In this document: positions 35,027-61,978 of the stretch, in pieces
How positions within the stretch are numbered: the first letter of the stretch is position 1
Layout: the number at the start of each line of letters is the position of its first letter
Assembly: GCA_018389105.1 (NCBI GenBank)
Contig: JACATO010001730.1
Coordinates: 62,001-126,000 of the forward strand
Direction: 5' to 3'
DNA length: 64,000 bases
Source of the DNA: Nautilus pompilius
Lineage: Eukaryota > Mollusca > Cephalopoda > Nautilida > Nautilidae
Program-made: the position numbers and the translations under genes
The notes under the pieces: generated by a model
The model's database searches: none
What the model was told of the DNA's origin: nothing
What the model saw: only the letters and a program-made list of their open reading frames with translations

Positions 35027-36232
35027 CTATGTAGTTGAACCATTCCCTGCCAAAGAAAACCAACCTCCACTGACATCTGGAACACTCCAGGTGAGATGAA
35101 TAAAACCGTAGCTTTGTCTCAAATGTTCGTCGGTCAGTTTCTCGTCAGTAGATGGACTTCCAACTGTTCTATGTCGCTCATGCATCAAAAGAACTGCCCA
35201 AGAACTTTTTAAACAAACAAAACCATTTATTTGTGATAAATACAGGTGGTGGGTTTTTTTTTCACTTTTAAATAACATACTGTTCCATTGGAAATATACA
35301 AAAGGTAAATTGGCTTAGTTCATGAATATCTGATGATAAAAAAATGGATATTCTTTTGATCTCTCCTGTCTTCCTCAGGAGTTGTTATTTATCAGATTAA
35401 ACTGGATTTCTGAATTTGACGTCATATCTTTCACCCACTGCAGTCTTAAATTTTTTGACCTCTCACTGGCAATATAGTACCCTGTTAAAAAAAAACAATA
35501 TATATATATATAGAATAATCAGAAAAGACAAATATGCATAGTAAGGGTTAAACCACAGTTTGTCTTTGAAAAAAAAAAACAAGTTTATGCTATGAGAAAG
35601 AAATTAATAGGTCCGTGTATTTTGGTTTGTGCGTGATCTGCAGTGTGAAGAAGAATCTGTCGACCCACATTTTTGGATGATGTGTACTATTTGATAATTC
35701 ACTCCATTTAGATGCGGTTCTCTTGCCACAGAAATGTTTTCCACAAACTGTTCAGCCAATTTACAATTGATCGGTATTTGTGATTTCAATATGTAACTTC
35801 GTTTTCTTATTTTTTAGCATGTGCTTGTATTACAATCAGACAAACCTAACCCTGCATCCTGAAGTTTGGAGAGAGCACCTGAGGACATGGGGTGGTGGAG
35901 AACATAAAATGGCTATGACAAACCAGAAGATTGTCTTTTACATGAAAACTAAACAAGGAAAAGATGATCATCCGTTTAAAATCTAGGACGTTCACAATTT
36001 TAGAGAAACCGAGGAGCTAAAATTCCTTTGTATTAGTGGGGTTTTTTTTCCCCCCCAGGTAACTGCTGCTGATGCTCCATTAGCTTTGTTCGACATTCAA
36101 ATACAATGTTCTCACATTTCAGACTTCTAGGAATTCTTCGAACATAACTAATGCAGATTAGAATTTCAGCTCAGTCATAAATCCATTTTCTAGGTTTGTC
36201 AGGCAAACAACACTAGTTCAGTGTTTTGTTCC

Positions 36233-36282
<50 letters not shown>

Positions 36283-39200
36283 GGCAACCAGGTAAACCAC
36301 CAAGGCTGGTGGGGTGCCCCGATTAAGTCTCCAGTGCTTTTGAAAAAATGACAAACTTCTGAAGCATAAACTGAAAAGGAAATAAACTCAGATGTCCCCC
36401 ATGCAAAAGAATTTTTTTTAAGAGAGAGAGAGAAGTTTACGCAGTTTTAACTGGCGTCCATCTTACAACAACCTGCTGAAAAGATTTTCTGATGTTCTGC
36501 TGTTCCCTTTCTCCATGTTGAAAAACCCTCAAACTCCCCTTTAGCCACGCCGCCATCTTTCCTAACCCCAAAACACATCATTTCTGCCAAAACAGAGTTA
36601 ACCCTTTGTGTCCGAATCTTTTGATGGAAAAGAAAAAAAAAACAAAAATTTCCTGAGTCAACACAAGGCCTGTGCCCCACTTATTTGCACCCTGTAGACG
36701 GATAATATATTTCTGGGCAGAAGAAACAAGCTTTAAGACATTTATAATGTTTTAGTGACTCCCGACAAAAGCAAGGGAACGATAACAGCAGCAACAAAAA
36801 AGAACGCAATGGGTAAAAAAAAAATGAACAGTAAAGTATCTGCTGGGAATGAAGAAAAGTCAGACATTTAAGAAGGACGCTGTTACTGACTCAAGATTCT
36901 GGACCCTGGTTTGAAATCAGAAGAGGATGAAGTTCAAATTCTTCTAGATTTGTCAGGGATGAATGGTGGGGAGAGAGGTTTGTAAGTAGAGATGGGAATT
37001 GCATACCTGGATACACGACGGATTCAAAAGTTGTGAAGTTTTCTTTCTTCCTCACAATGAAAAATCGTGAATCCACCTTAGTTCTTTCAGTTATGTCGTC
37101 TTCCTTTCTAATCTAGGAAAAAAGAAGAAATGGGTGTGTGAGCATCAGTGTAGGTGAAAGAGAACTAATATAACATTACAGGTATTATATAAAAAAGATA
37201 CAAAAAAGTCTTCCTGAAGCTGCCTTAATCAGGCAAGCGTATTCACATGCAGTACTATAACAGTCCAGTAGGCAGCTACCAGAATATTAAGGTTTAGGGC
37301 CTGAGCTTGATTGTCATGAGTACCAGCTCAGTCTGACAAACATCCATGGATATGGTTTCTTCTTGGCCTTCTTTCCAAGCCAGTTACATAGGTTTCTTCA
37401 GGGTACTCTGGTTTCCCCCTGCATCTAAAACAACGTAAAGTTGTTGAAAGGTCTTTCAGCAGGTTTGTTACATTGGCCAAAGTTTGGAGTCAGGCACTTT
37501 TGTGCTGGCTTCCTTACCTTCCAAGGTCCCCCTCCTTTCCTCTGAGATAAGCTAGTGTTCTGGGTCCTGGCCTTCATTAATGGCCAGGCGAAATTGGATA
37601 AATACAAAAAAAGAAAAAGAAAGGTTTCCAGCTTGTATAACGTTTGGTCAGTGAATGACCGTGTGCATAATGTATCTAGCTACAGAAGAGAAATCATGCG
37701 TTTGATCTCCGCTGAGAAAAGAAAAAAGGGAAACATAAGATCTACAAGGATGAGCAGCAATTAATGAGTGTTTCTTTTCAGCTCTTTATCAGCCGAATGA
37801 AAGCTAAAATATGGTAAATTTACTCACCACGTTTATTGTGTGTACATTTTTTGCATTCATATACAACCTGCTATTATTAAACAGCTTGAAAACACAGATG
37901 TACAGATTTTTCCCAATGTTGTCTATCCCAACAAATACGCACTGACTGAAGATAACTGTGAAAAAAGGAAAGATACATCATTAAACTTCTCAAACAACAT
38001 CATCTTGTTTTTTCAAGACTCTTTTAAAAAGTTTATGGTTCTAGGCTGACACAGCCTTCACACTGTGCTCCCCCACTCTATTTCTCTCTCTCTCTCTCCT
38101 GCTAAAAACAATTGGACAAATGACAGCACCAATTCTTTTGTATTATTTTACCTCAGTGCTTTAACTCACATTTTGACAGCTGTCCTCCATCTGTGACAGT
38201 CGAGATTCTAACCAATTTCTCGGGGGGGGGGGTTTAAAAGCTTGGAGGTGTCCGTCTTGTTCAACCGATACAAACATCAAACATTCCACTGGTTGGCCAT
38301 TAGGTCCAACTCTTACTTTTTAACTCATGGTAGCTTTTAGCACATAGTCGCTGATCAGATTGAAAAGACAAGATCTGCAAGAAACATCAGCCAGATGAGA
38401 GAGAGAGAGAGAGAGAGGGATATTAGTGTACCACTCGCTAAAAATCCTGAAACTGTCCAAAAAATTTTAAAAAAATATGTCCTCTGACATCGTGGTTGCT
38501 GAAGATCCTTTGCGTGTTTGGATGGACGAAGGGCAGCCGTGGCAAAAGTGCTTGTTTCTGCCTGAGGCACAATAGCGCCGTGGGATGTTGTTTTTTTCTG
38601 TCTACTCTTGAAATTTCTTTATTGAAGCAAATCCTAAGATAACGAAGCAAGGTTTTATACAAACGTACTGGCAAATCTCACACTGGGAAACGTGTTCAAG
38701 CTTATTCTACCTTCAGTGTATTTTAACTGTTGACCTTTAACAAGATACAAGGGAATGCTATTTTGTCTGAATTTATACAAAGTTGCCTCCCTATGTAATT
38801 GAATGTCCTTAGGGGCTTTGTTGTTATCTCCATTACTAACAACCTTTAATTACACTTTCCATAGATTCCTCATCACCCAAATGCACTAAAAGTGGGGGGG
38901 GGAGAGAGTAAAATCTATTTCTCCCATTGCTTTTTGGAGTTCTGATAATAAATGTATTTAAATGCAGAGGAATTCTTGACTTTGTAAATCCATTTTCAAA
39001 AGAATGTTACCAGCCCCTGGTTTCAACCATGTAGCTAGGCAGGCGAGCTGTTTCGTGCAGTTGAGGCACACCTTGATTGTCATTTTCCACCGACTCTGGG
39101 ATTCATCATTAAAAGCGTCTGAGTCACTAAGCACCAGTTATCAATGGCAGAGTCTGGCCTGCTGCAGCCCATTTTTATTCTGTTAATAAGCTGACTTAGA

Positions 39201-42200
39201 GCAACCATTCTGTATGCCAAAACCTGCAAATCCTCATGTGAGGTGCACAGCAACATTGGCCGATGTTGCCAACCTTTGTAAGAATTCTGCCCATCATCTC
39301 GTCTAATCACGGGACTGCACGTGTAAAGCTTACTAGGAATTCCCCATGGTCTTTTGTCAGTCAGCAAAGAACAGCAGAAGACGATTCTTTTGCTGGTACC
39401 AAAAAAACTAAAGAAATTACAGCAATTAAAAGTAAAATACTTTTTTTAGGAATTGAATTTTCAACACAAAGAATCACTTACATGAATTATCATTTGCATT
39501 TACTTGTGGTGCAATGTGGAAACTTTGCTGCTGTCTGCAGGTTACATACAAATTTTGATAAAAATGATCTTGGATGAAGATGGGTAACTGCGCTTTAAAT
39601 CTGATGCTGTTTACTTCAGGTTGGAAGAGACGCATATTCAGCTCAGCAACAACCTTTCTGCACACATCCTGCACTCCTAGAAAAGCAAACAGGTTTGGAA
39701 TGCTGCATCAAATACATTATAAGAAATTATTAGATAGGACCAGAATAATTAAGTGGTCTGATCATAGAAAAAGGGAGTATATCAGCCAACTCTTGGAGCT
39801 GAAAGACACAAGATAATCACCATCTGTGTGATAAGTATACACCTTGACACAAGCATCATCAGATTTTCCATAAGCAACTTTCTGCCATAACTACTATATA
39901 ATCTAAAACACATTTCTAACTAAAAAGTTACCTAATGCAACAAAAAACACAGTTCATGTTTCAGAAAGGCATAAAAGATTAACTGATGATGTATGTTTAT
40001 ATTTTGGTAAACTCCCAGTTCTCTGTGTAATAGCAGCACCAGAGTAGGAACTGGCTGCTAGAAAAAGTTTTTGTTGTTGTAAAGAACATGCTTTTAGGTG
40101 CCTCACCAGTATTTTACAATACATGCACCACACAATTCCAAAGATCCCCTTGTATAAATGATTTCCTCATACATGGTCTTTATGCTGCTCACAAGATGCC
40201 AAATGTGTGTCTATAGCATTTCATGTCACTACTCAGGCAAAGTCTGGGTCACCCTGACAATTTTCTGAACAGGATTCCTTTTCATACTATGCCTAATCTG
40301 ATATCCAAAGATGCTTTATTTGGTTGAAATCCAGGCTAATAGGGGAAGGAGTTGAGTGGTTGGTTATGTCATGGTAAACAAAACTTCTGGTAGGGGTAGA
40401 TAAGATAACCAACCCTCAGTCACAAACAGGCAAGATGGCCAGCTGAGCTACTTACTGTCCCTTAGTAAATTAGAACACTGCACACATGAGAAGAAGAAAA
40501 GGATTAAATCCCATATCTTGCCATGTTTTTCAAGCCATGATTACAATTAAATCACAAGGCAAAAGAATCTTTGAGTAAGAAAGCATAATGAAAGTAATAT
40601 GGTCAGATGTTAGAAAGCTTCACAATCTTACCTCGGGGAATGAGAATCATCTTCATCATAATTTCAATTTCTGAATATCCCAGCAAAGTCCCTTGACAGT
40701 AAACTGGACGAATGATCTAAAAATATAAAACGAAATATATATATTTTTTTAATGATTAAATGACATTATTCATTGATGGTCTACAGCCATGGGTTTTCAC
40801 AATTGACAGCACAGAAGCCATCCACCCATAATTTTGGTGTTTCAGCATCAGTTTGGCTTTCAAATTTAAAGGTATACCATCTGCAGTTTTGTTTGTTTTT
40901 GGAAAATGATTTCGAAAGGAATTGTCATAGCACCTTAGTTCATAGATGCGAATAGTAATGACGGTTGATAATACTCAAAGTAGGTAATCTCTATGTTTTG
41001 TCACACCGCGGATTTGCTTTGTCCTGCAAACACCTTCTGCAGTTTTCCAAACCAACTGAGAAATGGGACAATTTGAAATCTAACACAAATACACGATCTC
41101 AGAAAAGAAACCACAATGACAGGTGTGATGATGATGATATTCTGTACTTCCTTTGATTAAATGTTGCTAAATAAAAGTTCTAAGCTCCTTCTGCATATAG
41201 TTTCATTTAAATTTATGCCTAAGTCCTAAACTTCTAAGGTGATGTAAAACTTTTGGACATGGCTGTATTAATGTAACACGTGACAGTGTATGTTTATTTC
41301 ACCAGTTAAAATATAAAGTAAAATCTATGGTAAAGGTGAGAGAGGACATGAACATAGAAGAAAGCTTTAAAAGGAATTAACGCCAGTTAACCTGATTTTA
41401 ATCATTTTTTAAAGTATTTCTAGTAAAACAACATAAAACTCTTCCATACACTTCAACACAAAAGTAAACCTGTATTTTTGTGCTTTATTTTAAATGTCTC
41501 ACACACAATTTAAACAAAAGGTACAATAACATAAATTATCAAATTTAATTAAGCAAATCTGTTTCCAGGAGTATCAGTTTTCTTGTGTGAAAGTCATGTA
41601 GTCTCGCAGCTTCTCTACGATTTAAAGTCCTGTCTACGCTACCTGAAATCTGGCAACTGATGCTTTATCAAAAAAACACTAAGCCACATAGAATCCACGG
41701 GATTATCCAGTTTAACATAAAACTACTTTCCATCTATTTACACCTGGGAATAAGCAAAAACCAAATCTTTTAAATGTATTCTGAGCTGTAATTTTCTTGT
41801 TTCTCATTACTTTTGGGATAACATAACTTTCAACATTTCTGTTTTACTTCCAAAATCAAAACTTGACATCTTACAGTCCTTCCAATAGATAGATTTCTAT
41901 TTGTTTTTCTTTCTACTTAATGCATTATAAAGAAATCTTGTATACATACCAGCAGACAAAGTTTCTCCTCATATGAATTAATGAATAGTTCATTTACAGT
42001 TATGTGGTCAATATTATTAATTTTCTTTGAACCAATTTGCATCAGCACATCATTTTCTCTTAAAAAAGAAAAAAAAAAGAGAGAACATTAAAAAAGATAC
42101 AACACAGTCTGAACTCGTAACCTTAGCTTGTGATACTATGCAAAACAAGCATGCTGGAGGGAGTGTTATTATAGATACTGCATTTCCACGACAAATCAAG

Positions 42201-45200
42201 AGAGGATCACAACCACTGTGTGTCTCTCCTCTGGTTTCTCCTGAGCAGATCATGAGGAAGAATGATTAATTTTGTCAAGGAGAACTGGTTCTAATAAATA
42301 AACTATAGATGCCTATACATTTGTTTTCCAGCACAGAAAAAATAAAAGTTCTCAGATCAGGTTTCAGAGATGGTTGAGAGGCATAAATGCTGCCTCTTCC
42401 AAGTGGGGAGAACTTATTCCTGGTACAAATGAACAAATTTTTATTACAACCAAAATTTTTTTTTTTTTTTAAGCCCCTGACAGCAGGATGTAATCTATAA
42501 ATACGAGAGCTGGAGTTGGGGGTGGGTGGAGGAGAATTTTCCTACGAGAGCTGGAGTTGGGGTGGGTGGGTGGAGGAGAATTTTCCTCTTTTCAAAGTTG
42601 TCAGAGAAATCTATTTCATTTCTCATCATCCTGGTAGGTACTCTTTCACTTTACTTTTCCGTGCTTCATGAATAACCCACCGAGGGCCCTTGACCAGAAA
42701 TCCATGAAGGATTTCTCCTAGTACATTCAATGTATAGGGTGAGTCCTGACTCCTACAACCTACCCCTCCCATTTAAAAGTAAAAGTCTTACACAGTTTTG
42801 ATGTTTAGCTTCATACTAACCATGGGTTCAATTAATTTAAAAGTAGTCTCCACATATGTCTGACTGACTGCTGTGCTTGGTCAGCAGATCACCGGAGATG
42901 TATGGTCTTTAACATTAACCCTTCGTTTCTGGCTCCCATTAGCAGTAAATTGAAAGTTAAGGTAGACTGCTGTGCTTGGTCAGCAGATCACCGGAGATGT
43001 ATGGTCTTTAAAATTAACCCTTCGTTTCTGGCTCCCATTAGCAGTAAATTGAAAGTTGAGGTAGCAGCAGCAGTAAAAGTTATCATCAGTAATAAAGATG
43101 AAATGAGGAGAGGTAAAAAACAAACTGAAGATTACTTACCGGATTTTGAATTCACAACCTAATCCTTCTGTGTGGATGCTGACAAAGTGATGACGAAAAT
43201 TTTCCGTCACATCTGTGTACAGTTTGGCACCGAAATTGTAGATTTCACTGCCAATGCGTAACCTCATTTCTGAAATCTTTAAAAAAAGAAATTAAAATGT
43301 AGAAAAATGAACAAATGAAAAAAATGTTCTAACTGCAAATTGTCAATTTTTAGTAAGACTTCACACTGTTCATTTGTGTCTAGCAGTTCTCTGGTTTCTG
43401 AAAAGCAATACCATGACAACCATCTGCACTAAGGTAAACTTGTGAGATGCCTGTACTGAAAATCATTGATGCAGCAAAAGGCTATGATGCATAAAGTCCT
43501 GATAGACATGCATGTTTATTACCTGTTTTTTTTATAGAATTATACAAGCTGAATTAATTAAAGAGGCGTAAATAGTATACTAAGGGAGTGGAAGGAGAGA
43601 GAGAGAGAGAGAGAGAGAAACGGGCACAAAAAGTGTGTACGTTTGTGTGTAATGGAAGGTATTATTTTGATTAACAACTCTACAATGCTGACTTTTTACT
43701 TATAAAACATACTGTTGCTGTCTTGTTTGAATAATACAGCAAAGGAAACTGTAGAAAGCCTAAAAACAGGCTCATTCAGGGCCACAGGGTCAGAAATAGT
43801 TATTGGTCCAGCTACCAAACTGCAACAGCTATTTATTACAGGTTTCTCTTATCTCTCTCTCTTTTTGTCTACGAGTTGCAACAGTTTTGACCAGTCTTTA
43901 ATTATGCCCAGATTTGCCCAGAAACAAATGAGAAAGTATTCACAGGGTAATAAGATATCTAGTACCTATTTAAAATTCCTAGTAGATCCAAAATACCTAA
44001 TAATCTCTCCTTAAGCATCTAACTGAATTGACTTTAAGTAGCTCCGACTGAATAACCTGCCACTTTGTGACTCGTGTACAGGATAAACCAGCCCATACTC
44101 GATTGGTTTTTAAAGCCGTTCATGGTTAGCGATGGAAGCAGACCTAGCGACCTCTCCGCCTTCACAGGGAACTTAACCACATCCTGTTATTGGGAGGGAG
44201 GGTGTGTGTGTGTGTGTGGTGTGAAACAATATTAGCTTTTCGTCTATTGTTTCGTGACCGTCGATGGTAAGAAACTCACACAGAGAAGGATTCGTTAAGG
44301 ACATGTTTATTGACGTCTGTCGGACACGACAGTACACAGAAGAAGCAACGCCATCGCGACACATGAAGAGGAAGCCGGAAGTGCTCTGGCCCACGTGTCG
44401 TGTCGGCAGCAAATGCCACCGGGACTTTCCAATGGCCAGATATTAGAATATATATGATAATACAGCAGCCCAGTAATTGTAAATGATGCGTGTTATCCAC
44501 GACTTTCCGCTTAGCGACCAAAATTAAGTGTTTTTCTGCACTTATAAAAATGTCCGCCATCAACATGCCCGAGAAGCCGAGGATACGGTCGGTAACACAG
44601 AGGTAGCTTTATGTATGATGCCACCACAAGGTCGCCTTCCAGCTCTTCTCTGTATCAAGTTGGTGGGACCGCCTCTGTCGTCGAAATCCATCCCCGAAGA
44701 ATGTGGGAAAACACGGCGCCAGTGGCAGAAGGCATGCGGAAGAACAGGAAAACATGATTATATGTCCTTATGGGCCTTCCCTACTGAGCCTGATACACTT
44801 GACTGCTGATGCTTTTTGTTCATTAATAAGTAGAAATTGGAGAATGTACTTATATTTATATATTGCATGACCATCGTATGTATACAGTATACATGTAGAG
44901 TTGTAAACTGCATGCTGCTGTTATTCTCATTAAAATTATAAATAATTATGCATATTTATTTAATGTATGATGGAAGTAGGTTTTAAGAAGCTTGGGAAAA
45001 GGGGGGGCAAAGTCAGTAACTTTCGGTGGACCCCCTTTTCCCAAGCTTCTTAAAACCTACTTCCATCACTGTCCAGGACCAGGTGTGTTCAGCATTATCA
45101 TCCACGTACAACCAACCACTCACCCTCACAAACAAAACACAGATAGAAACATTCAGTGTACATACTTCAGGCTCGAGGCTTATTTCGTCCAATGCAGCAG

Positions 45201-45264
45201 CCATCCTATTTGTCGAGCAGTCAAAACTCCAGCGAGACCCAAGAGGAGACGAGCAGGTTCCCAT
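35027..45264 (-). CDS. Gene A: PDZ-like plus interleukin-1-like beta-trefoil protein, nine exons
   Basis: Minus-strand exons 45264-45166, 43276-43140, 42058-41950, 40716-40632, 39676-39504, 38374-38213, 37955-37828, 37112-37007 and 35193-35027 join in consistent phases (0,2,0,1,0,1,0,1), giving about 388 residues if one missing base in exon 6 is allowed. Residues about 40-120 read as a PDZ fold: FGAKL, HFVSI, KIRENDVLMQIGSKKI, VNELF, LCLLIIRP. From about residue 200 follow beta-trefoil strands: NVLMFVSVEQDGHLQAF, CVFVGIDNIGKNLYICVF, DSRFFIVRKKE, FTTFESVVYPVLLMH and SYGFIHLTW. CVFVGI..KNLYICV and RFF..FES..YP resemble strands 4-5 and 9-10 of IL-1 family cytokines. No signal peptide or membrane segment is seen. 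A second in-frame ATG at 45204 gives 368 residues. The fold assignment is inference from motifs. Confidence 0.68.
36234..36282. repeat. (TTA)n microsatellite
   Basis: About 16 TTA/ATT units in the last intron of gene A. Confidence 0.95.
37255..37425 (+). mobile_element. Possible SINE fragment
   Basis: The stretch GGCCTGAGCTTGATTGTCAT is followed by a body ending GGTACTCTGGTTTCCCCCTG, which resembles the conserved 3' domain I associate with invertebrate SINEs. No target duplication or tail was identified. It lies in intron 6 to 7 territory of gene A, between exons at 37828 and 37112's far side. Confidence 0.3.
38213..38374 (-). CDS. Exon 6 of gene A, with an apparent one-base deletion
   Basis: The exon follows a strong TTTCTTGCAG acceptor and starts in frame (ILSFQSDQRLCAKSYHEL). 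That frame runs into a stop at 38303, while the frame carrying NVLMFVSVEQDGHLQAF opens just after about 38314. One inserted base next to the run of five A at 38317-38321 restores a continuous exon whose length then fits both neighbours. The donor (ATTG/GTTAGA) is weak, and a run of ten C just before it may also be miscounted. Confidence 0.55.
42499..42600. repeat. Tandem duplication, about 50-bp unit, two copies
   Basis: The block TACGAGAGCTGGAGTTGGGG to GAGGAGAATTTTCCT occurs twice in a row, in intron 2 of gene A. Confidence 0.85.
42866..43063. repeat. Tandem duplication, 99-bp unit, two copies
   Basis: Units 42866-42964 and 42965-43063 begin GACTGCTGTGCTTGGTCAGC and differ at only a few positions, so the duplication is recent. 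It ends about 75 bases from exon 2 of gene A, on the intron 2 side. Confidence 0.93.
44969..45067. repeat. Perfect 37-bp inverted repeat with 25-base loop
   Basis: The left arm 44969-45005 opens GATGGAAGTAGGTTTTAAGA and is matched base for base by the right arm 45031-45067. The loop is 45006-45030. It lies in intron 1 of gene A, about 100 bases past the exon 1 donor, and would fold as a strong hairpin if transcribed. Confidence 0.93.
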
Positions 45265-46140
45265 TGAAGGATACGAGAGTATCCCCGTCTATTTAAAGTT
45301 TCTGGCGCTTTGGAATTCCCCAAATAAGAAAGCTATTCCATTAGTGAAAGGGGAAGTTAACTTTGACATGCAACTCCCACCAGGCGGATTATTCCGGTGT
45401 ATTAATTCTAATAATAACAAATGAATATCGGGTTCGCTTTTGTTATCGCTACTTAGGTGGATCGCGTTTGCTGGATGGTCAGTATTATCCTCCCACGCCT
45501 CCGGTCGGTGTGGAAAGTGGAACTCACCAGATCAGGCCCAACATTAAAGAGCCGGTTAAGAACACATCGCTTCCCCAAAAAGAGAAAAGCGCGGAGATTC
45601 GCACGCACAAGGCATCTGAAAACACCCCCCCCCCCCTGGCTGTGTCATCAGCATAAACACGTGTGGAGTCTGGCGATCGGTGATACTAAGGCAGCCACCC
45701 CTACCCCAGTGAATCGTCTACCGGTGTTGACCCGGCCTCGTTTTCACCCCCCCTCTCTCTCCCTCTCTCTCTCTCTCGTTGTGCTAAGCGACGGCCTTTC
45801 CTCGGTGATATCAGGGCCGAGTGATCGGTGCGTGTAAAACAACTCGACGATTTCTTCTCTCCTTCTAAAATATGGTAACGCCGTTGTTCTTTCTTTTGGG
45901 GGGGGGGCCCCACGTCACACAAACCGGGTGACATTCATCCCACGACTGAGCCGCCAACATGACATCGGAATGTGGCGGGCGGACAGATAATTCACAAGCT
46001 CCTGGACTCGATCGTCTAATTTTACGAGGACGATCGAACTACAAACGACAGTCGGACGAGAAATAAATGTCAATGCGCTAGAAGCAGATTCGCATTAGTC
46101 CGCATCTTTCCATGTTTTACCTGAAGCTGTAGTGGCAAGT
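45265..46140. promoter_or_regulatory. CpG-rich 5' flank of gene A
   Basis: CpG density is high upstream of the proposed starts at 45264 and 45204, as expected for an unmethylated promoter region. A plus-strand open frame of 132 codons (45026-45424) overlaps it without a recognisable domain. A CT run lies at about 45750-45778. Confidence 0.4.
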
Positions 46141-47855: not shown

Positions 47856-48931
47856 TATATGTGTGTGTGTGTGTTTATACGTATGTGTTTGTGTGTATGT
47901 GCGTTTATACGTATGTGTTTGTGTTCGTGTGTGTGTGTGTGTTTTTATACGTATGTGTGTTTATACGTATGTGTGTGTGTGTGTTTATACGTATGTGGTG
48001 TGTGTGTGTTTATACGTATGTGTGTGTGTGTGTTTATACGTATGTTGTGTGTGTGTGTTTATACGTATGTGTGTGTGTGTGTTTTTATACGTATGTGTGT
48101 GTGTTTATACGTATGTGTGTGTGTGTGTTTATACGTAGTGTGTGTGTTGTGTTTATTACGTATGTGTTTGTGTTCGTGTGTGTGTGTGTGTTTATACGTA
48201 TGGTTGTGTTCGTGTGTGTGTGTGTGTTTATACGTATGTGTTTGTGTGTATGTGTGGTTTATACGTATGTGTGTGTGTGTGTTTATACGTATGTGTGTGT
48301 GTTTATACGTATGTGGTGTGTGTGTATTTATACGTATGTGTGTGTGTGTTTATACGTATGTGTGTGTGTGTGTTTATACGTATGTGGTGTTGTGTGTTTA
48401 TACGTATGTGTGTGTGTGTTTATATGTGTGTGTGTGTTTATACGTATGTGTGTGTGTGTTTATACGTATGTGTTTGTGTTCGTGTGTGTGTGTGTTTATA
48501 CGTATTGTGTGTGTGTATACGTATGTATTTGTGTGTATGTGTGTTTATACGTATGTGTTTGTGTGTGTGTGTGTTTATACGTATGTGTTGTGTGTGTGTT
48601 GTTTATACGTATGTGTTTGTGTTCGTGTTGTGGGTATTGTGTGTGAGAGTGTTGTGTGTGTGTTTATATGTGTGTGTGTGTTTATACGTGTGTGTGTGTG
48701 TGTGCGTGTGTTTATACGTATGTGTGTGTGTTTATATGTGTGTGTCTGTGTTTATACGTGTGTGTGTGTGTGTGCGTGTGTTTATACGTATGTGTGTGTG
48801 GTTTATATGTGTGTGTCTGTGTTATACGCATGTGTGTGTGTGTTTATATGTAGTGTGTGTGTGTGTGTTTTACGTATGTGTTTGTGTGTATGTGCGTTTA
48901 TACGTATGTGTTTGTGGTCGTGTGTGTGTGT

Positions 48932-48966
<35 letters not shown>
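47856..48966. repeat. (TG)n array with regular TATACGTATG interruptions
   Basis: About 1.1 kb of GT-rich sequence in which GTTTATACGTATGTG recurs every 20-40 bases, over 35 times. The long open frames across it (up to 397 codons of Cys, Val and Tyr) are a by-product of the repeat and are not genes. Confidence 0.95.
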
Positions 48967-48968
<2 letters not shown>

Positions 48969-48969
48969 A

Positions 48970-49560
48970 AGCTTCATGAAAACGGAGTGTACAATCTCCT
49001 AACCACAACTCCCGATGATTCTCGGTCGAAAAACAGGGGTAAGCGTAATTAATGACACCGAAGCTGTCCGTTTGTGTGTGGGTCCGCTCACTTCACGACC
49101 TCACATCATCTTATCACAGTCCAGTGAACATCCGGCCGTTTGGTCCACGTGTCACTCTACGCTGATAATTACATTCCATCTTTCCATCGATCTCTGTTTC
49201 GGATGATACACCGGAGTCGGAAGGAAAATAATTTTTCAAACAACAACAACAACAATAATGAATAATAATAATAATAATAAATTAAACTGTCCGGATTATT
49301 TTGAGGTGACGTCTCGTATCGGTGTCTCTCCCCCCCCCTTCTGTCTCTATGGTGTGAAACAACCCGAGAACAGATTCGCTGTCAGTCAGTCAGCCGGTGC
49401 ACGATGACAGCAGATCACTGCTTCGTCACCTCGTCTACCCTTCGAGCGCGTAAACAGATTTTAATGTATGCGAAACAAACAGAAGTGTAAACAAGACAGG
49501 AGGAGGACTCGAGAGCTTCCTCGTCGAGAGAGGCGGCGCTGATTAACCGAGATGCGATTC
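48970..49560. other. CpG-rich spacer, no gene seen
   Basis: Unique sequence with a (CAA)n/(TAA)n tract at 49239-49280. No exon was recognised. Confidence 0.55.
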
Positions 49561-49564
49561 TAAT

Positions 49565-50082
49565 AAAAGAGAAGAAGAGAGAGAGAGAGAGAGAGAGAGA
49601 TGATGAGAGTATCGGGGAAGAGCGAGAGAGAGAGAACGAGAGAGGCGGCGAGCAAGCGAGAGAGAGAGGAGTCGAGAAAGAGAGCTTAGAGAGGCGAGCG
49701 AGCTCTAGAGAGAGCTAAGAGAGAGATAGAGCGAGAAAGAGCTCTGAAGAGCTCGCTCGCGAGCGAAAGAGCCGAGCAAGAGAGAGAGAGAGAGAGAGAG
49801 ATGAGCGAGAGACAGAGCTAGCGAGCGCGAGAGAGATAAGCGCGCTAAAGAGAGAGCTGAGCGAGATATAGCGATGAGAGAGAGATAGAGATAGAGAGAG
49901 AGAGCGCGAGATATCAGCGCGATGGAGGATAGGCAGATAGATGCGAGAGATAGAGAGAGGATAGCTCTCTCTCGATAGCCTCGCTCCAGTCTCTCTATCT
50001 AGCTCGAGTCTCCTTCTCTCTCAATTCGATCTCTCTCTCGCTCTCTCTCTCTCCCCTCTCTCTCTATCTCCATCTCTCTCCA

Positions 50083-50155
<73 letters not shown>

Positions 50156-50157
50156 GC
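49565..50157. repeat. GA-rich tract switching to CT-rich
   Basis: The plus strand is almost pure purine GA with GAGC islands to about 49960, then turns to CT repeats to 50157. The two halves are roughly inverted copies. Open frames here are artefacts. Confidence 0.92.
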
Positions 50158-50159
50158 AA

Positions 50160-51650
50160 TTTCGGGATCTACAATAAACTTAAGCATTTAAAGGAAAACA
50201 AAACAATATAAGTTTCTCCCCCCCCCTCCTTAGATAACCTGGGTCCAGGAGCGGATAAAAGGGTTAAATGTTCCGGATTAATTAGCAGTCGGATAAACAA
50301 GACTCGGACTCAGGCAGTCATCCCGTTCGGGAAGCAGGGATTGGTGGTATTTCAGCAGCCACAGATACAGGCGATGGAAATCTTGAAACGGAACGGGAAG
50401 TCGCTATTCCCTTCTTCTCGGGTCATTTCTGCTAAACCCGAGAACATTTACTGTTTCTGTATTGGAGTAACAAACGAAACAGGACCAATTATCACTACCG
50501 GGTTTTCCACTTAGTCGTTCTTCGCGCTCCTCGCGCATCCATCACTCTCTCAGCGACAGCTCCGTTTTACTGTTTCTCTCTTTCTTTTTCATCATCACCG
50601 ACACCCAGATACAAGGGCCCCGCCCCACCCCCGAAAGAGTAGGCTGCTCGCTTGGGAACGACCCTGCGATGAGAAGGAGGACAGATGATTCAAGACGTCC
50701 ATAATCTAGCTTATGAAGAACAAGGGGCTTTTATTCGATACTTAAGTAGTGGAGTGGAGCGACACGCATTCGAGATGACAGAATTAAATCCCAAACTTAT
50801 CGAAGCCGCCCAGACCTCCCCAGGACCATCCGTGCCACGTTTCGCTCTCCGGCTGAGCGGTGATGTCTCCCTCCCAGATAAGTTATAGCGTCGATGGCAT
50901 TTACGTTCGTTTTATCGGGGTGTTCGGCAGGGTTCCACACGCAGACAGCTGGGCAACGAGCAAAGAATAGAATCTTTTAAAAATTACAGTGATAGTCTCT
51001 TGTTGTCGATCAGCGATAATCTACGTGGCGAATGGTATCGTTTAAGCTAAACTGTAACCGTAGTAATAAAACTATAGGATTTTTGGTTCTTGTGTCCGCA
51101 TCTTTTACTCTGCTACTTCCCGAAATAACCACCTGCATGGGAACCTCTGGTTCTCCCACGTTGGAAAATTTTAAAATAGCAAAAGTCATAAAGACTTTAA
51201 AGCTATAAAAAAAACCAAGAGAATCTCCGATTCTCCCACGAGGGAGGACTGAAAATGAAGAAGAAAACGGAGGGAGAACATGACTCCATCCATCACCCCG
51301 CAAAAATAAAATAGAACTCTCTCCATCCTTCCATTTTGGAAAACTGAAAAATAACAGTGTGCCCCAAACTTCCCTTACAGAACAAGGACAAACAGAGAGA
51401 AAACTCTGTTCTAGAGAGTTCAGCCAGGACAAACCTACCCCTCTGCGTGCAATACGGAGGAGTTGGGTAGCCCGCTGCTCTCTCGCTAGGCTGAGGTACA
51501 CTTTTAAACAATACACAGGTCGAAATAAGGCCTCACTTATAAACAGCTGTGGCGGCCGGTCGTGGAACCGATCCAGCTACACCCACATACAAATGCAACC
51601 TAACAAACACTCCCCTAAACACCGCACAACACCCAAAAAAAAAAAAAAAA
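50160..51650. other. CpG-rich intergenic stretch, no secure gene
   Basis: A plus-strand frame of 67 codons at 50685-50888 has ordinary protein composition (VHNLAYEEQGAFIRYL) but no splice context or known domain. A 168-codon minus frame at 51010-51516 likewise lacks support. Confidence 0.4.
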
Positions 51651-51652
51651 GT

Positions 51653-52806
51653 CCCCCTTTAGAACGCGGATTTATATACGGAGTCCGTGTCAGCATCTTT
51701 GGTTAAGCCCCCTCCCTTTAGAACGCGGATTTATATACGGAGTCCGTTGTCAGCATCTTTGGTTAAGCCCCCCTCCCTTTAGAAACGGATTTATTACGGA
51801 GTCCGTGTCAGCATCTTTGGTTAAGCCCCCTCCCTTTAGAACGCGGATTTATACACGGAGTCCGTGTCAGCATCTTTGGTTAAGCCCCCTCCCTTTAGAA
51901 CGCGGATTTATATACGGAGTCCGTTGTCAGCATCTTTGGTTAAGCACCCCTCCCTTTAGAACGGGATTTCTACACGGAGTCCGTGTCAGCATCTTTGGTT
52001 AAGCCCCCCTCCCTTTGAACGCGGATTTATACACGGAGTCCGTGTCAGCATCTTTGGTTAAGCCCCCCTCCCTTTGAACGCGGGATTTATACGGAGCCGT
52101 GTCAGCATCTTTGGTTAAGCCCCCCTCCCTTTAGAACGCGGATTTATATACGGAGTCCGTGTCAGCATCTTTGGTTAAGCCCCCCTCCCTTTAGAACGCG
52201 GATTTATATACGGAGTCCGTGTCAGCATCTTTGGTTAAGCCCCCCTCCCTTTAGAACGCGGATTTATATACGGAGTCCGTGTCAGCATCTTTGGTTAAGC
52301 CCCCTCCCTTTAGAACGCGGATTTATATACGGAGTCCGTGTCAGCATCTTTGGTTAAGCCCCCCTCCCTTTAGAACGAGTCCGTGTCAGCATCTTTGGTT
52401 AAGCCCCCCTCCCTTTAGAACGGGATTTATACACGGAGTCCGTGTCAGCATCTTTGGTGGTTAAGCCCTCCCCCCTTTAGAACGCGGATTTATACACGGA
52501 GTCCGTGTCAGCATCTTTGGTTAAGCCCCCCTCCCTTTAGAACGGATTTATACACGGAGTCCGTGTCAGCATCTTTGGTTAAGCCCCCCTCCCTTTAGAA
52601 CGGGATTTATACACGGAGTCCGTGTCAGCATCTTTGGTGGTTAAGCCCTCCCCCTTTAGAACGCGGATTTATACACGGAGTCCGTGTCAGCATCTTTGGT
52701 GGTTAAGCCCCCCCTTTAGAACGCGGATTTATACACGGAGTCCGTGTCAGCATCTTTGGTGGTTAAGCCCACCCTTTAGAACGCGGATTTATACACGGAG
52801 TCCGTC
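51653..52806. repeat. Minisatellite, about 58-62-bp unit, about 19 copies
   Basis: The unit runs CCCTTTAGAACGCGGATTTA, (T)ACACGGAGTCCGTGTCAGCA, TCTTTGGTTAAGCCCCC. ACACGGAGTCCGTGT is itself a near-palindrome. Later copies carry a TGG insertion. Confidence 0.95.
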
Positions 52807-52809
52807 TTC

Positions 52810-55480: not shown

Positions 55481-55484
55481 GATG

Positions 55485-56264
55485 GTGATGAAGAAGAAGA
55501 AGATGATGAAGATGGTGATGATGCTATTACACACTAATGAATTTATTTACTGGTTATTGGTTTTTTTTCTTTCTTTAAAAGCTACGCTCAGCTTTGTTTC
55601 TCAGGGTGCTCGGGATCGATTACACTGAAGATGATGATGATGCTATTACACACTAATGAATTGATTTACTGGTTATGGGTTTTTTCTTTCTTTAAAAGCT
55701 ACGCTCAGCTTTGTTTCTCAGGGTGCTCGGGATCGATTACACTGAAGATGATGATGATGAAGATGATGATGATGCTATTACACACTAATGAATTGATTTA
55801 CTGGTTATGTTTTTTTTTTTCTTTAATAGCTACGCTCAGCTTTGTTTCTCAGGGTGCTCGGGATCCTTCACTGAAGATGATGATGATGAAGATGGTGATG
55901 ATGCTATTACACACTAATGAATTGATTTACTGGTTATGGGTTTTTTCTTTCTTTAAAAGCTACGCTCAGCTGTTTCTCGGGGTGCTCGGATCGATTATAC
56001 TGAAGATGATGATGAAGATGATGATGATGCTATTACACACTAATGAATTGATTTACTGGTTATTGTTTTTTTTTCTTTCTTTAAAAGCTACGCTCAGCTT
56101 TGTTTCTCAGGGTGCTCGGGATCCCTTCACTGAAGAAGATGATGATGATGAAGATGATGATGATGCTATTACACACTAATGAATTGATTTACTGGTTATG
56201 GGTTTTTTCTTTCTTTAAAAGCTACGCTCAGCTGTTTCTCGGGGTGCTCGGGATCGATTACACT
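55485..56264. repeat. Minisatellite, about 120-140-bp unit, six copies
   Basis: Each copy has a GATGAT/GAAGAT run, GATGCTATTACACACTAATG, a T-rich stretch, then AGCTACGCTCAGC and GGGTGCTCGG. Copies start near 55519, 55638, 55771, 55899, 56020 and 56162. A 182-codon open frame runs through four copies only because unit lengths preserve the frame. Confidence 0.95.
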
Positions 56265-56567
56265 TCCTGATAAACGACCGGGATTATGTCTACTCAGGTA
56301 TCGTACAAAAATTTTAAAAACAACAACAACAACAACAACGTGGTGGTGGTGGGAAGTGACTGGTTTCGTATTGATTTTAATAAGAAATCTGTCGGACCCG
56401 TTTTGAAATTATTATTTATATCAAAGATGGTTCCAATAAGGGAGGTAATCCATTTTAGAAATCTCACTAAGATTAAAACACTCTCATTAACATCTCGCGT
56501 GCTCTGTTCTATCCTCTAAAAATGCAGCTACAAAAAGATTTTAAAAAAAAAAAAACAAAAAAAATTC

Positions 56568-57308
56568 TTACTCGTTTTCATTTATTATGAAAAATTTTAT
56601 TTTAAAAACAAAACGGTACAGTTTTGTAGAGTTTCCGTCCATCGGAAGAAAGAGGGAAAAGCAATGGACCGAGGTTTCCCCAGCCTCCTTCGTCACGTGC
56701 GAATTGCTGAAAACTCGTTTTAAATCACGTCGCCGGTTTTCCGCGGTTCCACGGGGAAGTAACTCGTTAGCGCAGCGGTTTGCTCCGAACCGAGCGTTCC
56801 CACAATGCATTTCGAACGAAACTGGGTCCTTTGCATTTCGCAAGGTCCCAAAACAGACGCCGATACTGAGAAAGTGGTGTTTATTTAGATGATTTTGAAG
56901 GCAATGACAGAAGTAAGCCAGGCGGCAGTTAGGGCTCAGTGAGTGTAATAGGGTGAGCAGCCTCAGAAAGCTACACATCCCTTCTGCCGAGTCTGCCGTC
57001 TTGCAGACAATCCTGGGTGCTACTGTAACAGGGCACATTTTTTGCGACAATGCCCACTACAAGATGAATGCCATCGCCTCTGAAACAAATACACTTCAGT
57101 TTGCTTCCTCAAAGAGTAAATAACTTAACATGTTTTAAATAATCAAAATACATTAATTCTCTCTCTCTCTTATCTCCCTTGTACCGACGTCATCTCTCTC
57201 TCTCTCTCTCTCTCTTCATCTCTACCGACTCACTCTCTCTCTCTCTCTCTCTCTATATCTCCCCTTTGTACCGACGTCATCTCTCTCTCAAGGAAAAATA
57301 AATGCGAT
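56568..57308 (-). other. Probable 3' flank of gene B
   Basis: AATAAA on the minus strand near 56580 could end a 3' untranslated region of about 720 bases. CT runs at 57156-57290 fall inside it. A 160-codon minus frame (56568-57050) overlaps this stretch without a known domain. Confidence 0.4.
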
Positions 57309-60117
57309 CTAATTCTCTAATCTATTGATACAATTTTCAGAGTTTCTCCGAATTAATGACGAATGTCCTGATCCGCTCTTTTCCAAAATTAGGTTAAACA
57401 GGGTTTCTGATGGATATTCGATATCGTTAATGCTGCATTCCTGCCCGACCAGCTTATCATCCTTGCATGATAACAGCAAAGCTGAAAAGAGAAGAAACGA
57501 TGCCTGATGTTATAGCAGAAGATATGAGGCAAAAACAGAAGGGGGAGGGGAATCTCTAGTTCTAACAATAACGTCTCGTTTTTGTTTGCTTGTTTTAAAA
57601 CCCTACTTTTAAAAGGGAAGACAGTTTAGACGGTCGGTTTGTGTGTTGCTTTTCTCTTCTTTGTTTTTTTTACAGTGGGAGCCATCGTTGATCAAACTCG
57701 CCGAGCATGAAGTTGCGTCAACTCTCTACCTCCTAAAAGTAATGTGCGTGCTTCTAAAACTGGGAGGAGAGAGAGAACTCTAGAATGAGTCGTGTTTCAG
57801 AGAAACGCAATTCCAAGAGTTAACGATAAAGTTCAAGTTGCGTACAAATAAAACGCTATACAGCTCTATGCACAATTATGACGCAGACATGGCTGTGTCC
57901 GGTTTTCTTAACAGGAGAGCTGCAGAAATGTATCACACCATCTTAGTGCCACCCACAAGCAAAATGAATAAATAAAATATCATTAACAATAGTTGTGGTG
58001 GCAATCAACATTTGCTTCAAATATTAAATTATCTACTGTTCTATAAACTCAACTTACAGTTTCTATAGAAAGATCTGAAAGAGAATCTCTTTCCGTTTTG
58101 TTCCAAGTAGAAAAGATGACGAAAATTCGGATCTGCATCTTTTATTGAGCGTTTGGTGCTACCCAGGTAAGGCAGCACACTGTTAGATCTTGCAGCTGTC
58201 TGTAGAAAAGGAAACCAAAGATAATAATGATGCTAACACCCTGAACGAAGAAGACCCATTTGGGCCTAATGTCGGTTTCTTAAGAAGTTAGACTTTCTTA
58301 ATTATAACGGTCCCATTATTTGTAAGTGCGTAAAAATTACATTTTGAGAATTCCTTTCATTATGCACTAACGTGAGCCCATTCCAGATGTTATTGCATTT
58401 CTGGTTATGTTGGGCCGAGAACCCCGGGATTAGTTGTTGCTGGGCTAAACCTAATCCAACGTAGAGATATAAGGCTAATAACGTCATTTTTATTCCAGCC
58501 TCATCTGTACGTTTCATTTGGAATTGATGACGATGTTATGCCTAACCCAGTAACAGCGAGCTCCGGACATCCTCAAGAATCTGCCAATGTTGGGAATGGG
58601 GGGGGCAGAATTCTTTAAAATTACATACAAGATTTTTAAAAATGGGAGGGGGAAACAAACTTGCATCGGCCAGACACTAGGCAGCACATCTTTGCGTTTC
58701 AGGTAGATGGAAATAAAAGGACTTACCACCAGGGCACATTTATTGCTATTCGTGACGACCAAGAACTTTCCGGGCATCGTGAGCGGAGAGAAATACACCA
58801 TAGTGACAACGCTGCCGGGGTGCAAGATGTTGTCGATCGCGGTGAAAGTAAACTTATTGAACAGACCTGAAAGAGTCAAACATCTACTTATAAATCAACG
58901 GCCATCGCCAGACGTAAGCTTTCAGGAAAGCAAAAAAAAAAGCATTGCAAATTTAGATTCTTCTTTAGTCTTTTCTAAAACAAAACGAATAATCAGGTGA
59001 AAGTCGATCTTGCTGGTGGGTGGGTGGGAGTCTCCCTCCAGGGGCAAAACCCTGTCTTGGGAATCACTAGTTCGGATGCAGTCTCTTCTTCGAACACGCG
59101 AGCCGACGCCGACACCTAGAGCGGAAACCGGATGTCTCGTCTCTTCTTAGACCGAAACGGAAGAGAGGGGAGGGTTCGTCAAACCAAGGTGGGGCGGGGC
59201 CCACCGGAACTCGAACTGGGACCCTCTCCCCCCCCCACCAGCAGTCCGTATATAAACAAAACACTTACAAAACTCGTCGTCAAAACTCTTCAAATACTTC
59301 ATCACCAACTCCCCGTCCTTTCTCGTTCCCAGAAAGAAGTTCCTCCACAGGCCGTATGTGATGTACACCAGCTGCTTTCCTTTGAAAGTGAAATCCGTCA
59401 GCGATACGAACCGCCATCCCAGAAATTCCCTGGTCACTTCTACCTTCAGTATCACCTCTTCTGAAACGTAATCATCGCCGTTAAAAAAGGTAACTCTCAG
59501 GTATTCCGATCTAACTTCGTGACCAAAAATCTTAACCGAAGGCAGCTGGAGCAAAAGTCGCGGTACAGCGCCACCTTTAGGCTTAACTACACATCTTAGG
59601 GGGGTTTCTAGAAGGAATTTCTCTGATAATCAGGTTTTCTTTGACATTTTTGAATCTCACATTTCGAACAGGGATCAAAAAGATTAGCAGGCCCCATGGC
59701 AGTATCTCCGACGTCGGCCATCCATCTCAGGTAGCTCGTCCTGCTCTCAGTGCCGACGAAAGACGCGCAGAAGGTTCGGCAAAGCTTACCCGGGTCAACT
59801 CCAATTTCAGCCCTGACTTCTTTGTAGACCCATTCCCTTTTCGCCTGTTCTGTTCCGCCGTCTTCTTCCTGTTCCAAATAACGCGTGACCTGGAAAAACA
59901 GAGAGAGAGAGATTCAGAAGCTTTCGCGTTGGCGTGCACCTTCCCCACCCCAGAAAAGTGCAGGCAGCTCGAAGGAGATGGGAGAACCGGAGAGGCAAGG
60001 ATCCGCTTCAATAGAAAACCCCATTCTTCTTGGTGAACTCTTGCCCTTACTTTCGCGGTCTAAGAGCGTCTCACAATAGCGAGCTGAAAGAGAGAGAGAG
60101 AGAGATGGAGATGGAGG

Positions 60118-60150
<33 letters not shown>

Positions 60151-61978
60151 AGGAGAGAGAAGAGATGAGAGAAGAGAGGAAGAGAGAGAGAGGGGAGAGA
60201 GAAGAGAGAGAGAGAGAGAGAGGGAGAGAGAGGAGCGAGAGAGAGGCGAGAGAGAGATGGAGAGAGAGATGGAGAGAGGAGAGAGGAGGAGAGCGAGAGA
60301 GAGGAGAGAGAGGGGGAGAGAGAAGAGGATGCGTGGCGGTGACTAAGCTAGGTACCCGGAAACACCTGGGGACTCTCGGGCAGTGGTCGTAGAGCAAACC
60401 CGTCGTTTACTATGGATAACAGCGGCCATGACGTGTTGCTGTGGATAAGAGCAGTAATGACGCCATAACTACCCAGCAGTCGTATACTCATCGGCGTATC
60501 TGACAAGAGTTAATTCAACCATTACCTATATTCTGAAAATCTGACTCCTAGCAGAAAAATGTCCGAAACGCTGTTTGTTTGTTTTTTTTTTTAGAATTCG
60601 CGCTGCCTTGTGGTAATAGGCAGAACTAAGTGGAGGTAAGCGGGAAGCAGAAAAGGGACGTAATGCACGCCGATTTTCATACTTACCAGCACCACGTGTC
60701 CTCCGGAATTTAAAAAGAACAAGTCGAAGCTTTTCACGATCTCGCTGTGTGTCATCTCTGCCGACAGAAAATCGTTGAAAATAATCAGCTCATCGTTCTC
60801 CCTGAAACAGACGGCGGCCATTAAAGACGGTACATAAGGGAAATCAAAGCTTTACGGAATAATTCGGACACTGAAGGTTAAAGCTCGTGGCGCTCCCTTT
60901 TACCGTTCATTCCGTGTATCCCAAAATAAAACTCTAAACATTTTAAAGTTATAACAAAATTCGATAAATAAAAACCACAACAGCAACATCAGGAGCCATG
61001 ATACACCTCGTCGTCAACGTAGGGACCGAGACGGCCTCGTTACCAGGAAAAGTAAGGTCAGCCGAAAGTGCCCTAAGATCTTACTCTCGATCTTCCCTGC
61101 CGGAAACCCTTATTTTCCAAGGTGGTAGGGGCCGACTGGTGACGCAGGGAGGTGGGGGGGGGGATAAGTCTGTTACAATAAACCGCACCGACACTTATCG
61201 TTATTTTAGTAGTAGACAGACTGGACGGGGCCCCGAGACAGAGCATCAACAAGAGATCCCTCCCCAGCGGCTGCTGTCACCTCGGGTGAGGGGCCGCGGT
61301 GAATACAGTTAAAACAGTCATAGTGCCTCCCGCTTTAATTACTTACCGAATCTTGAGCTGGTGAGCGTAGCTGTTTTCGGACACCTTATGGAACAGATGG
61401 CGGTACCTTTCCAGCTCCTTGTAGCAGCGGATATGGGATCCGAACGTTTTTTTCTCCGAGTCGGACGATAATGTCACGTATATCTGACTCGAGCCCACGA
61501 AACCGTCAGATTCTTCTCTCAGACCCTGGAAAGCAGATAAATGGAAATCGGTGAATGAATAGCATTGATGGATTCTCGATACGATGGATGCGACTCCCAC
61601 ATCCATCACCCATATTAAAGACGCGTTTCTTTCTCTCCGGAAAGAGAACCGACCCCTGCTTTGCTCTGTCGAGGTTCTTTTCGGGAATATCACCGACCCC
61701 CCCCCCCTCTCCCCGGGACTTCCCTCGGGCTCGCGACGACGAAGGCGAGAGGAGTCCGACTTTACCTGTTCGTCGTCCTCTTCCTCGTCATCGCTGCTGC
61801 TGCTGCTGCTGCTGGCTCGCGCCGGCGACTGGGGCGGCTCGAAGTCGAAGTCGGGCACCTTGGCGCTGATGATGCGCCGCATGTCTGGGCTGGGGCTTCG
61901 GGCCGACTGGCGGCTCTTCACGTCGGTCAGCTGCAGCCTCTCGAGTGCTCGGTGCTGCCGTATCCCGCTCATCGTCAT
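57309..61978 (-). CDS. Gene B: PDZ-like plus interleukin-1-like beta-trefoil protein, eight exons
   Basis: Minus-strand exons 61978-61766, 61525-61347, 60801-60687, 59889-59790, 59574-59269, 58866-58727, 58199-58058 and 57481-57309 join in phases 0,2,0,1,1,0,1 and give about 455 residues. Residues 1-71 are basic then very acidic: seven serines in an AGC repeat run into DDEEEDDE. Residues about 80-170 read as PDZ-like (IYVTLSS, LKIRENDELIIFNDF, HVVLVTR). The C-terminal part has trefoil-like strands: FFLGTRKDGELVM, NKFTFTAIDN, KFLVVTNS, RHLFYLEQNGKRFSFRSF, SLLLSCKDDKLVGQ and ETLFNLILEK. RFSFRS...LLLSC matches the spacing of the IL-1 family F-x-S...[LI]-[SC] signature. No signal peptide. Exon 5's acceptor is weak; a better one at 59545 is out of phase. 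Confidence 0.7.
59882..60340. repeat. GA-rich tract in intron 3 of gene B
   Basis: GAGAGA and GAGATGGAGA runs, mainly 60088-60330. The open frames of Glu/Arg or Ser/Leu across it are artefacts. Confidence 0.9.
61766..61978 (-). CDS. First coding exon of gene B, acidic serine tract
   Basis: The start is taken at 61978 (MTMSGIRQH); a second ATG lies two codons on. The exon ends GAACAG/GTAAAG. The serine run is encoded by AGC triplets, so its length may vary between individuals. Serines followed by acidic residues are typical casein kinase 2 targets, which is inference. Confidence 0.75.

Follow-up and report, generated by a model that had tools for sequence, protein, structure and literature searches.

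Tandem paralogous genes of Nautilus pompilius that probably join a PDZ-like half to an interleukin-1 trefoil

Whether a mollusc can carry a ligand gene of the interleukin-1 (IL-1) family is the question raised by a 64,000-nucleotide stretch of Nautilus pompilius DNA (assembly GCA_018389105.1, contig JACATO010001730.1, positions 62,001 to 126,000 of the forward strand), called the window here and numbered from its first letter. The origin of IL-1 has been dated to some 420 million years ago, when vertebrates or gnathostomes arose (PMC9020223; PMC9382457), and a 2022 review states that IL-1 arose after its receptors and that gene orthologues were not found outside vertebrates (PMC9020223). Elsewhere it is stated that "IL1 first appeared in mollusks", yet the results of that same paper name lampreys (PMC8226699). 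Two genes on the minus strand of the window, A and B, bear on this question. We consider it probable that they are tandem paralogs forming a molluscan PDZ plus IL-1 branch of the IL-1 family, similar in layout to the fish protein nIL-1F.

Gene models were built by splice-site scoring combined with the reading frame. For gene A, seven exons were found between 43276 and 35375, encoding 288 residues and ending in a stop codon at 35375. Its 5' end is a candidate only, with the start placed either in an exon at 45264-45124 or at an in-frame methionine at residue 4 of exon 1. Gene B has seven coding exons that encode 412 residues, with the ATG at 61978 and the stop codon at 57309. Across the two models, all 12 introns are bounded by GT-AG and the frames are open from end to end. 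The chance of such an open frame is 1.6e-9 for A and 1.1e-9 for B if exon boundaries are assumed to be fixed beforehand; since the boundaries were picked with the frame in view, these values overstate the case. The weakest splice sites of both models are those of B exon 4 (acceptor 2.3, donor 1.6). The initial annotation had placed two paralogous multi-exon minus-strand genes at 35-62 kb, which the intact frames, the GT-AG introns and the blastp and shuffle comparisons given below bear out; it had also ended gene A at 35027, in place of which the last exon is 35481-35375.

The C-terminal half of gene A carries an IL-1 domain. The Pfam cut-offs are 25 bits for IL1 (PF00340), 24 for FGF (PF00167) and 23.2 for PDZ (PF00595). 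The whole protein matched PF00340 with an E value of 4.6e-7 (30.0 bits), and the trefoil alone matched it with 9.8e-8 (32.1 bits), both above the cut-off. IL-1RA, IL-33 or IL-18 accounted for ten of the 14 sequences in the PDB list of A (best E, 0.032), and hhalign against a reference alignment of three human IL-1 family sequences gave a probability of 94.4 and an E value of 9e-8. Shuffled versions of A never equaled its score against IL-1beta, IL-1RA or IL-18 (0 of 1000 for each). As a control independent of the gene models, a small IL-1 HMM was run on the open reading frames of the window (2136 listed, 1418 scored), and the first and second ranks went to A exon 6 (E, 0.0035) and the last exon of A, the latter being weak on its own (E, 4.5). 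The IL-1 signature has the form [FC]-x-S-[ASLV]-x2-P-x2-[FYLIV]-[LI]-[SCA]-T... and its strict version failed in A; by inspection, FESVVYPGYYIAS fits it except at the T, where A has S.

The intron phases of gene A point the same way. In a study of turtle IL-1beta, (II, 0, I, I, 0) is named as the usual phase series, which closes with (1, 1, 0), and the trefoil is encoded by the final three exons (PMC4880838). Gene A has phases 2,0,1,1,0, which is the vertebrate IL-1beta series, and then one extra 1; within the trefoil, A has 1,1,0 plus the extra 1, and B is without the first of these three. Because of the profile match together with this phase series, which are the strongest evidence, A is on sequence grounds an IL-1 family gene by descent. 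It is very improbable that the trefoil is instead FGF-like or lectin-like, with its likeness to IL-1 arising by convergence within the fold. A weak FGF score was indeed obtained with A (PF00167 E, 0.053, 14.0 bits, below the cut-off of 24; FGF2 chain in the PDB, E 0.65), but IL1 reached 32.1 bits on the same trefoil, the local HMMs gave 29.9 bits for IL-1 versus 3.7 for FGF, and the intron phases are those of IL-1beta. FGF was accordingly set aside as an identity; a lectin trefoil was considered through the Pfam and PDB lists only.

A and B are diverged tandem paralogs. Comparison of the two proteins by blastp gave an E value of 2e-5 with 40 identities in 191 positions, and their local score (z, 7.2) was equaled by none of 500 shuffles. 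The PDZ part alone scored z 6.0, again with 0 of 500 shuffles equal, and the sequence from the trefoil onward scored z 3.7, with 3 of 500 equal. Similarity peaks in the PDZ part and the early trefoil; overall, the proteins are about 20% alike, with introns kept in both. According to the gene models and alignments, five introns are common to A and B in phase: the first, of phase 2, within KI(R)|END; the second, of phase 0, after the PDZ part; the third, of phase 1, before IF/LF; the fourth, of phase 0, after INV/ALV; and the fifth, of phase 1, at YP(G)/RN(S). Introns one, three and five each occupy an identical alignment column in A and B, the second is off by one column and the fourth by two. 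In A, an extra intron of phase 1 lies where B exon 4 stays undivided.

These correspondences can be followed along the exons. Gene B begins with an exon of its own (61766..61978; donor 4.0, phase 0) that holds the ATG and a charged, acidic, Ser-rich N-terminus, which by inspection is without a signal peptide. The PDZ-like first half is encoded by A exon 1, the first found (43140..43276; acceptor 7.6, donor 6.6, phase out 2), which contains the methionine at residue 4, and by B exon 2 (61347..61525), for which phmmer gave a match to the MAGI-2 PDZ with an E value of 0.56. The PDZ-like second half lies in A exon 2 (41950..42058; ENDVLMQI...IDHITV) and B exon 3 (60687..60801; ENDELIIFND...MTHSEIV). 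Past the PDZ-like half, A exon 3 (40632..40716; acceptor 4.3, donor 6.2, phases 0 to 1) encodes linker and A exon 4 (39482..39676) encodes linker and the first third of the trefoil; B exon 4 (59269..59545) covers linker and first third as a single exon versus two in A, and aligns with A exon 4 at z 2.8. The mid-trefoil is encoded by A exon 5 (37828..37955; 128 nucleotides, phases 1 to 0), whose product CVFVGIDNIGKNLYICV was aligned with IL-1RA by phmmer, and by B exon 5 (58727..58866; 140 nucleotides, phases 1 to 0), which aligns with A exon 5 through F..F.F..IDNI at z 2.8. A exon 6 (37007..37112) holds the IL-1 signature region RFFIV...FTTFESVVYPG and by itself matched PF00340 with an E value of 0.035; B exon 6 (58058..58199; HLFYLEQNGKRFSFRSFYRN; acceptor 9.6) matches A exon 6 in its splice phases. 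The last coding exons, each with the stop, are A exon 7 (35375..35481; YYIASERSKNL...EIQFNLINNNS; acceptor 8.4) and B exon 7 (57309..57481; LLLSCKDDK...SETLFNLI; acceptor 8.8), which align with one another at z 1.5. In the exon-by-exon matrix, matching pairs ranged from z 0.2 (A6-B6) to 3.5 (A1-B2).

Both genes occupy a single locus. The genome searched comprises 727,640,739 bases in 2558 contigs, and in it A matched all seven of its own exons at this locus, with one additional chance-level match (E, 5.2); no further copy of B was found beyond the locus. Within the window, an HMM run across the 2136 open reading frames revealed no third paralog.

Several results weigh against reading both genes as PDZ plus IL-1 proteins, beginning with the PDZ-like half. 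In A, PF00595 scored 14.9 bits, below the cut-off of 23.2, and covered profile positions 43-80 of 81, the match lying in exon 2; for B, PF00595 was not listed in the Pfam scan. The score of A with a small PDZ HMM was equaled by 84 of its 1747 scored shuffles and that of B by 2 of 1598; among 1500 scored open reading frames, B exon 3 came only sixth with this HMM, and the best eight contained no exon of A. In the PDB, the MAGI-2 PDZ was the first of the two matches to B, and five of the 14 rows obtained with a joint A+B profile were PDZ chains, the best of them (0.35) standing below an unrelated chain (0.18). Using hhalign against four PDZ domains, P values of 0.0018 (joint), 0.011 (A) and 0.0058 (B) were obtained, in register including the helix-B His, while a control of PDZ against the A+B trefoil gave 0.52; as IL-1 against FGF reached a P value of 0.002 under the same scoring, these PDZ values are suggestive only. 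Compared with the PDZ domains of the scaffold proteins MAGI-2, MAST4 and ARHGEF11, the second half in A and B is in register, again with the helix-B His, and no match is significant; the canonical GLGF loop was not seen in either protein by inspection. A PDZ identity of the N-terminal half of A and B is probable but not established by sequence, and the half may act in the manner of a PDZ domain. The initial annotation had assigned a PDZ-like domain to both genes, and it is in this probable form that the assignment survives, sub-threshold in A and unlisted in B.

The C-terminal half of B adds to this side of the balance. Neither the whole B protein nor its trefoil alone matched PF00340 in Pfam, no IL-1 chain was among the PDB matches listed for the B trefoil alone, and hhalign of B against the IL-1 family gave an E value of 0.36. 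The IL-1 HMM score of B was equaled by 24 of 1603 scored shuffles, and its scores against IL-1beta, IL-1RA and IL-18 by 21, 377 and 200 of 1000. Addition of B to A weakened the IL-1 hhalign result from 9e-8 to 3.4e-4, and the B counterpart of the IL-1 signature, FRSFYRNSLLLSC, is by inspection without the P. Two off-diagonal exon pairs reached z 3.3 and 3.8 in the exon matrix, with A6-B6 at only 0.2. When PF00340 was searched exon by exon across the genome, no match was found at 1e-3, and the controls likewise gave none. The IL-1 hallmarks that had first been assigned to both genes are thus upheld in A and not in B, whose trefoil alone goes unrecognized.

One explanation of these results is that only A is an IL-1 homolog and that B is a PDZ paralog which no longer has a trefoil or never had one. 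The missing Pfam match, the hhalign and shuffle values of B and the concentration of A-B similarity in the PDZ part and early trefoil, with so low a score for A6-B6, would fit this. However, the two genes agree in the phase of their last three introns, two of which also coincide in alignment column; they have the F..F.F..IDNI and FNLI stretches in common, and the trefoil-only score between A and B was equaled by just 3 of 500 shuffles. On this evidence we regard a B gene devoid of the trefoil as unlikely. It is suggested, not proven, that the C-terminus of B is the same trefoil as that of A, and as far as its sequence goes B is IL-1-like only through its paralogy with A.

Could the locus be foreign? 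Reviews hold IL-1 to be confined to vertebrates (PMC9020223), which would fit a contaminating fish contig or a gene acquired from a vertebrate. The host itself is an invertebrate, as the initial annotation had it, and a mollusc by its haemocyanin loci and mitochondrial code. The genome contains two loci of molluscan haemocyanin (PF14830) with 14 matches, seven units in each; haemocyanin has seven units in octopus and nautilus and eight in gastropods. No molluscan haemocyanin match occurred in 14 control genomes, although these controls are prokaryotes. In one COX1 copy, AGA codes for Ser at the NNMSFW site and AAA for Lys at NHKDIG, a combination that excludes the vertebrate, tunicate, echinoderm and flatworm mitochondrial codes. 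At least 117 COX1 matches were found, many with repeated partial spans, and they are probably nuclear copies of mitochondrial DNA.

At the locus itself, the A-B interval contains a repeat that is also present on 19 other contigs, and therefore the locus belongs to this genome. The ratio of observed to expected CpG is mosaic, at 0.15-0.77 in 10-44 kb versus 0.81-1.21 elsewhere; counted in 2-kb windows, 13 of the 17 within 10-44 kb do not exceed 0.40, and each of the 15 outside it falls at 0.81-1.21. Vertebrate genomes, by comparison, are globally methylated. The ratio is near 1 in 1-10 kb and 44-64 kb, with an edge at about 44.0 kb, so that A and the NLR-like frame sit in the low and B in the high state. 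A vertebrate origin of the locus was rejected on the mosaic CpG depletion, the mitochondrial code, the haemocyanin and the repeat on 19 contigs, and the two copies are in addition only about 20% alike, with introns. We consider foreign DNA an exceedingly improbable source. No viral relatives of the trefoil or of part of the NLR-like frame described below were found.

A layout of this kind is already known from fish. The protein nIL-1F joins an IL-1 family domain to a PDZ domain in 352 residues, is encoded in lumpfish by seven coding exons with six introns, and has been reported in teleosts, Callorhinchus and Latimeria (PMC7144542). The initial annotation knew of no protein with this domain pairing, a statement that nIL-1F overturns (PMC7144542). 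In A and B the putative, sub-threshold PDZ half precedes the IL-1 part. Like lumpfish nIL-1F, B has seven coding exons and six introns, A has at least seven exons, and the lengths are 352 residues for nIL-1F versus 412 for B. In contrast to the fish gene, the mollusc has two much-diverged tandem copies; the likeness to nIL-1F is drawn from its published description. IL-1beta is not known to have a PDZ domain. With vertebrate IL-1beta, IL-1RA, IL-18 and IL-33, gene A shares the PF00340 match and the FES..YPG..I stretch, and with IL-1beta the intron phases. It differs from vertebrate IL-1beta, which has a propeptide (PMC7144542); A and B have an extra intron inside the last trefoil repeat, and B has lost the signature.

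The further claim that no protostome IL-1 member is known did not stand either. The Nautilus pompilius genome paper names IL1 in a list with a reference to figure 6b, in passages that carry no analysis of architecture, paralog or introns (PMC8257504), and gene A is very probably that IL1. Among the papers listed from the open-licence PMC literature, where absence is weak evidence, none was seen from its title and the start of its abstract to describe a PDZ-IL-1 protein in a protostome, a paralog of it or its intron structure; nor were a molluscan gene with the nIL-1F layout and IL-1 intron phases, its hidden paralog or its NACHT neighbor met there.

A receptor was also looked for, and its result belongs with those that weigh against a cytokine pair: among 16 TIR matches sorted by eye, no Ig-TIR receptor of the IL-1R type was seen. 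Twelve lie in Toll-like frames with leucine-rich repeats, two look EGF-TIR-like and two stayed unassigned. The EGF-TIR-like matches, on contig C1355, belong to two likely receptor genes in which a split TIR is preceded on the same strand by a membrane exon and exons of EGF-like type, assigned by eye from strand and nearness; one TIR there had TLR6 as its best PDB match (1.2e-26), followed by TLR1 (3.6e-26), with IL-1RAP at 6.5e-21. These receptor results are in keeping with A and B being intracellular adaptors in which PDZ and trefoil serve as protein-binding modules and never as a cytokine, the likeness to IL-1 reflecting ancestry without a shared role. PDZ domains are textbook intracellular scaffolds, B has no signal peptide by inspection, and the IL-1 surface of B has diverged past recognition. 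Yet A retains the IL-1 signature region closely (FESVVYPGYYIAS), and the similarly built fish protein is reported, in work cited by PMC7144542, to be a ligand of IL-1R1 that dampens IL-1beta. An adaptor role is an appreciable possibility, though we judge it somewhat doubtful.

For a PDZ plus IL-1 pair of the nIL-1F type, a mechanism may be proposed. IL-1alpha, IL-1beta, IL-18 and IL-33 are leaderless, reside in the cytosol or nucleus and exit by lysis or through a pore. The Nautilus proteins would likewise lack a signal peptide and remain cytosolic, and the PDZ domain would there tether each protein to the C-terminal tail of a partner and serve as a pro-region. Cell damage could release the trefoil, and so could NLR-type sensing with ensuing proteolysis and opening of a gasdermin pore; once freed, the trefoil might signal as an alarmin through a receptor that carries a TIR domain. 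The constitutive copy may be A, which lies in a CpG-depleted domain of the germline-methylated type, and B, in a domain of the unmethylated type, may be a regulated or diverged one. An Asp stands right before the trefoil of B (SLTD|F); at the aligned column A has Ser, and the sole Asp of the A linker, residue 114, is further upstream. Since the Asp is absent from the A column, a caspase step would not be common to both proteins.

The neighborhood contains one gene of possible relevance. An open frame at 19753..22059 on the minus strand, 13.3 kb beyond the stop of A and not part of the pair, combines a NACHT match (PF05729; 3.1e-6, 27.6 bits, cut-off 26.7) with leucine-rich repeats (LRR) of the RNase-inhibitor-like type, for which LRR chains were matched in the PDB. 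It is the best of at least four NACHT matches at E values of up to 0.1 in the genome and the only one of them with NACHT plus LRR; of the other three, inspection by eye suggests a RIG-I-type helicase for one and a P-loop frame for another. The match in the frame next to A begins at profile position 26, past the P-loop. Its linkage to A is a hint only, because the count is a lower bound, the linkage was noticed after the fact and the P-loop is unmatched.

Other features of the window and genome were recorded. Gasdermin had a single genome match (C651:861375-861746; E, 9.1e-11). Between the NACHT-LRR frame and gene A lie an open frame of 218 residues rich in membrane-like segments (30701-31354, plus strand), which had no Pfam or PDB match, and a decayed DDE_3/Tc1-like transposon (31904-32969, minus strand). 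Exons of a major facilitator transporter occupy 2209-5803 on the minus strand (PF07690 in three of the four frames scanned), and a decayed mariner-like transposon was seen by eye at 1315-2115 on the plus strand. Tandem arrays at 47860-52805 and 63085-64000 comprise a TG-rich 1.1 kb, about 20 copies of a 59-60 bp unit and 27 copies of a 34 bp unit. Scans with Rfam (gathering scores) and for tRNA found nothing in the window.

The interest of the pair is evolutionary, its mechanism being an inference. If A and B are what we consider them to be, the IL-1 ligand would be moved back to the bilaterian ancestor, and the PDZ-IL-1 protein of the nIL-1F type would be the likely ancestral form of the family; where the IL-1 propeptide came from could then be tested by setting PDZ and propeptide exons of different phyla side by side. 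A bolder scenario, which we offer tentatively and think unlikely to hold in full, is that the ancestral bilaterian IL-1 was a cytosolic PDZ-trefoil alarmin tethered through its PDZ domain; that IL-1beta arose by decay of the PDZ domain, its propeptide exons (II, 0, I) being remnants of PDZ exons comparable with the 2, 0, 1 of A; and that the pair beside an NLR-like gene is an old inflammasome-ligand neighborhood.

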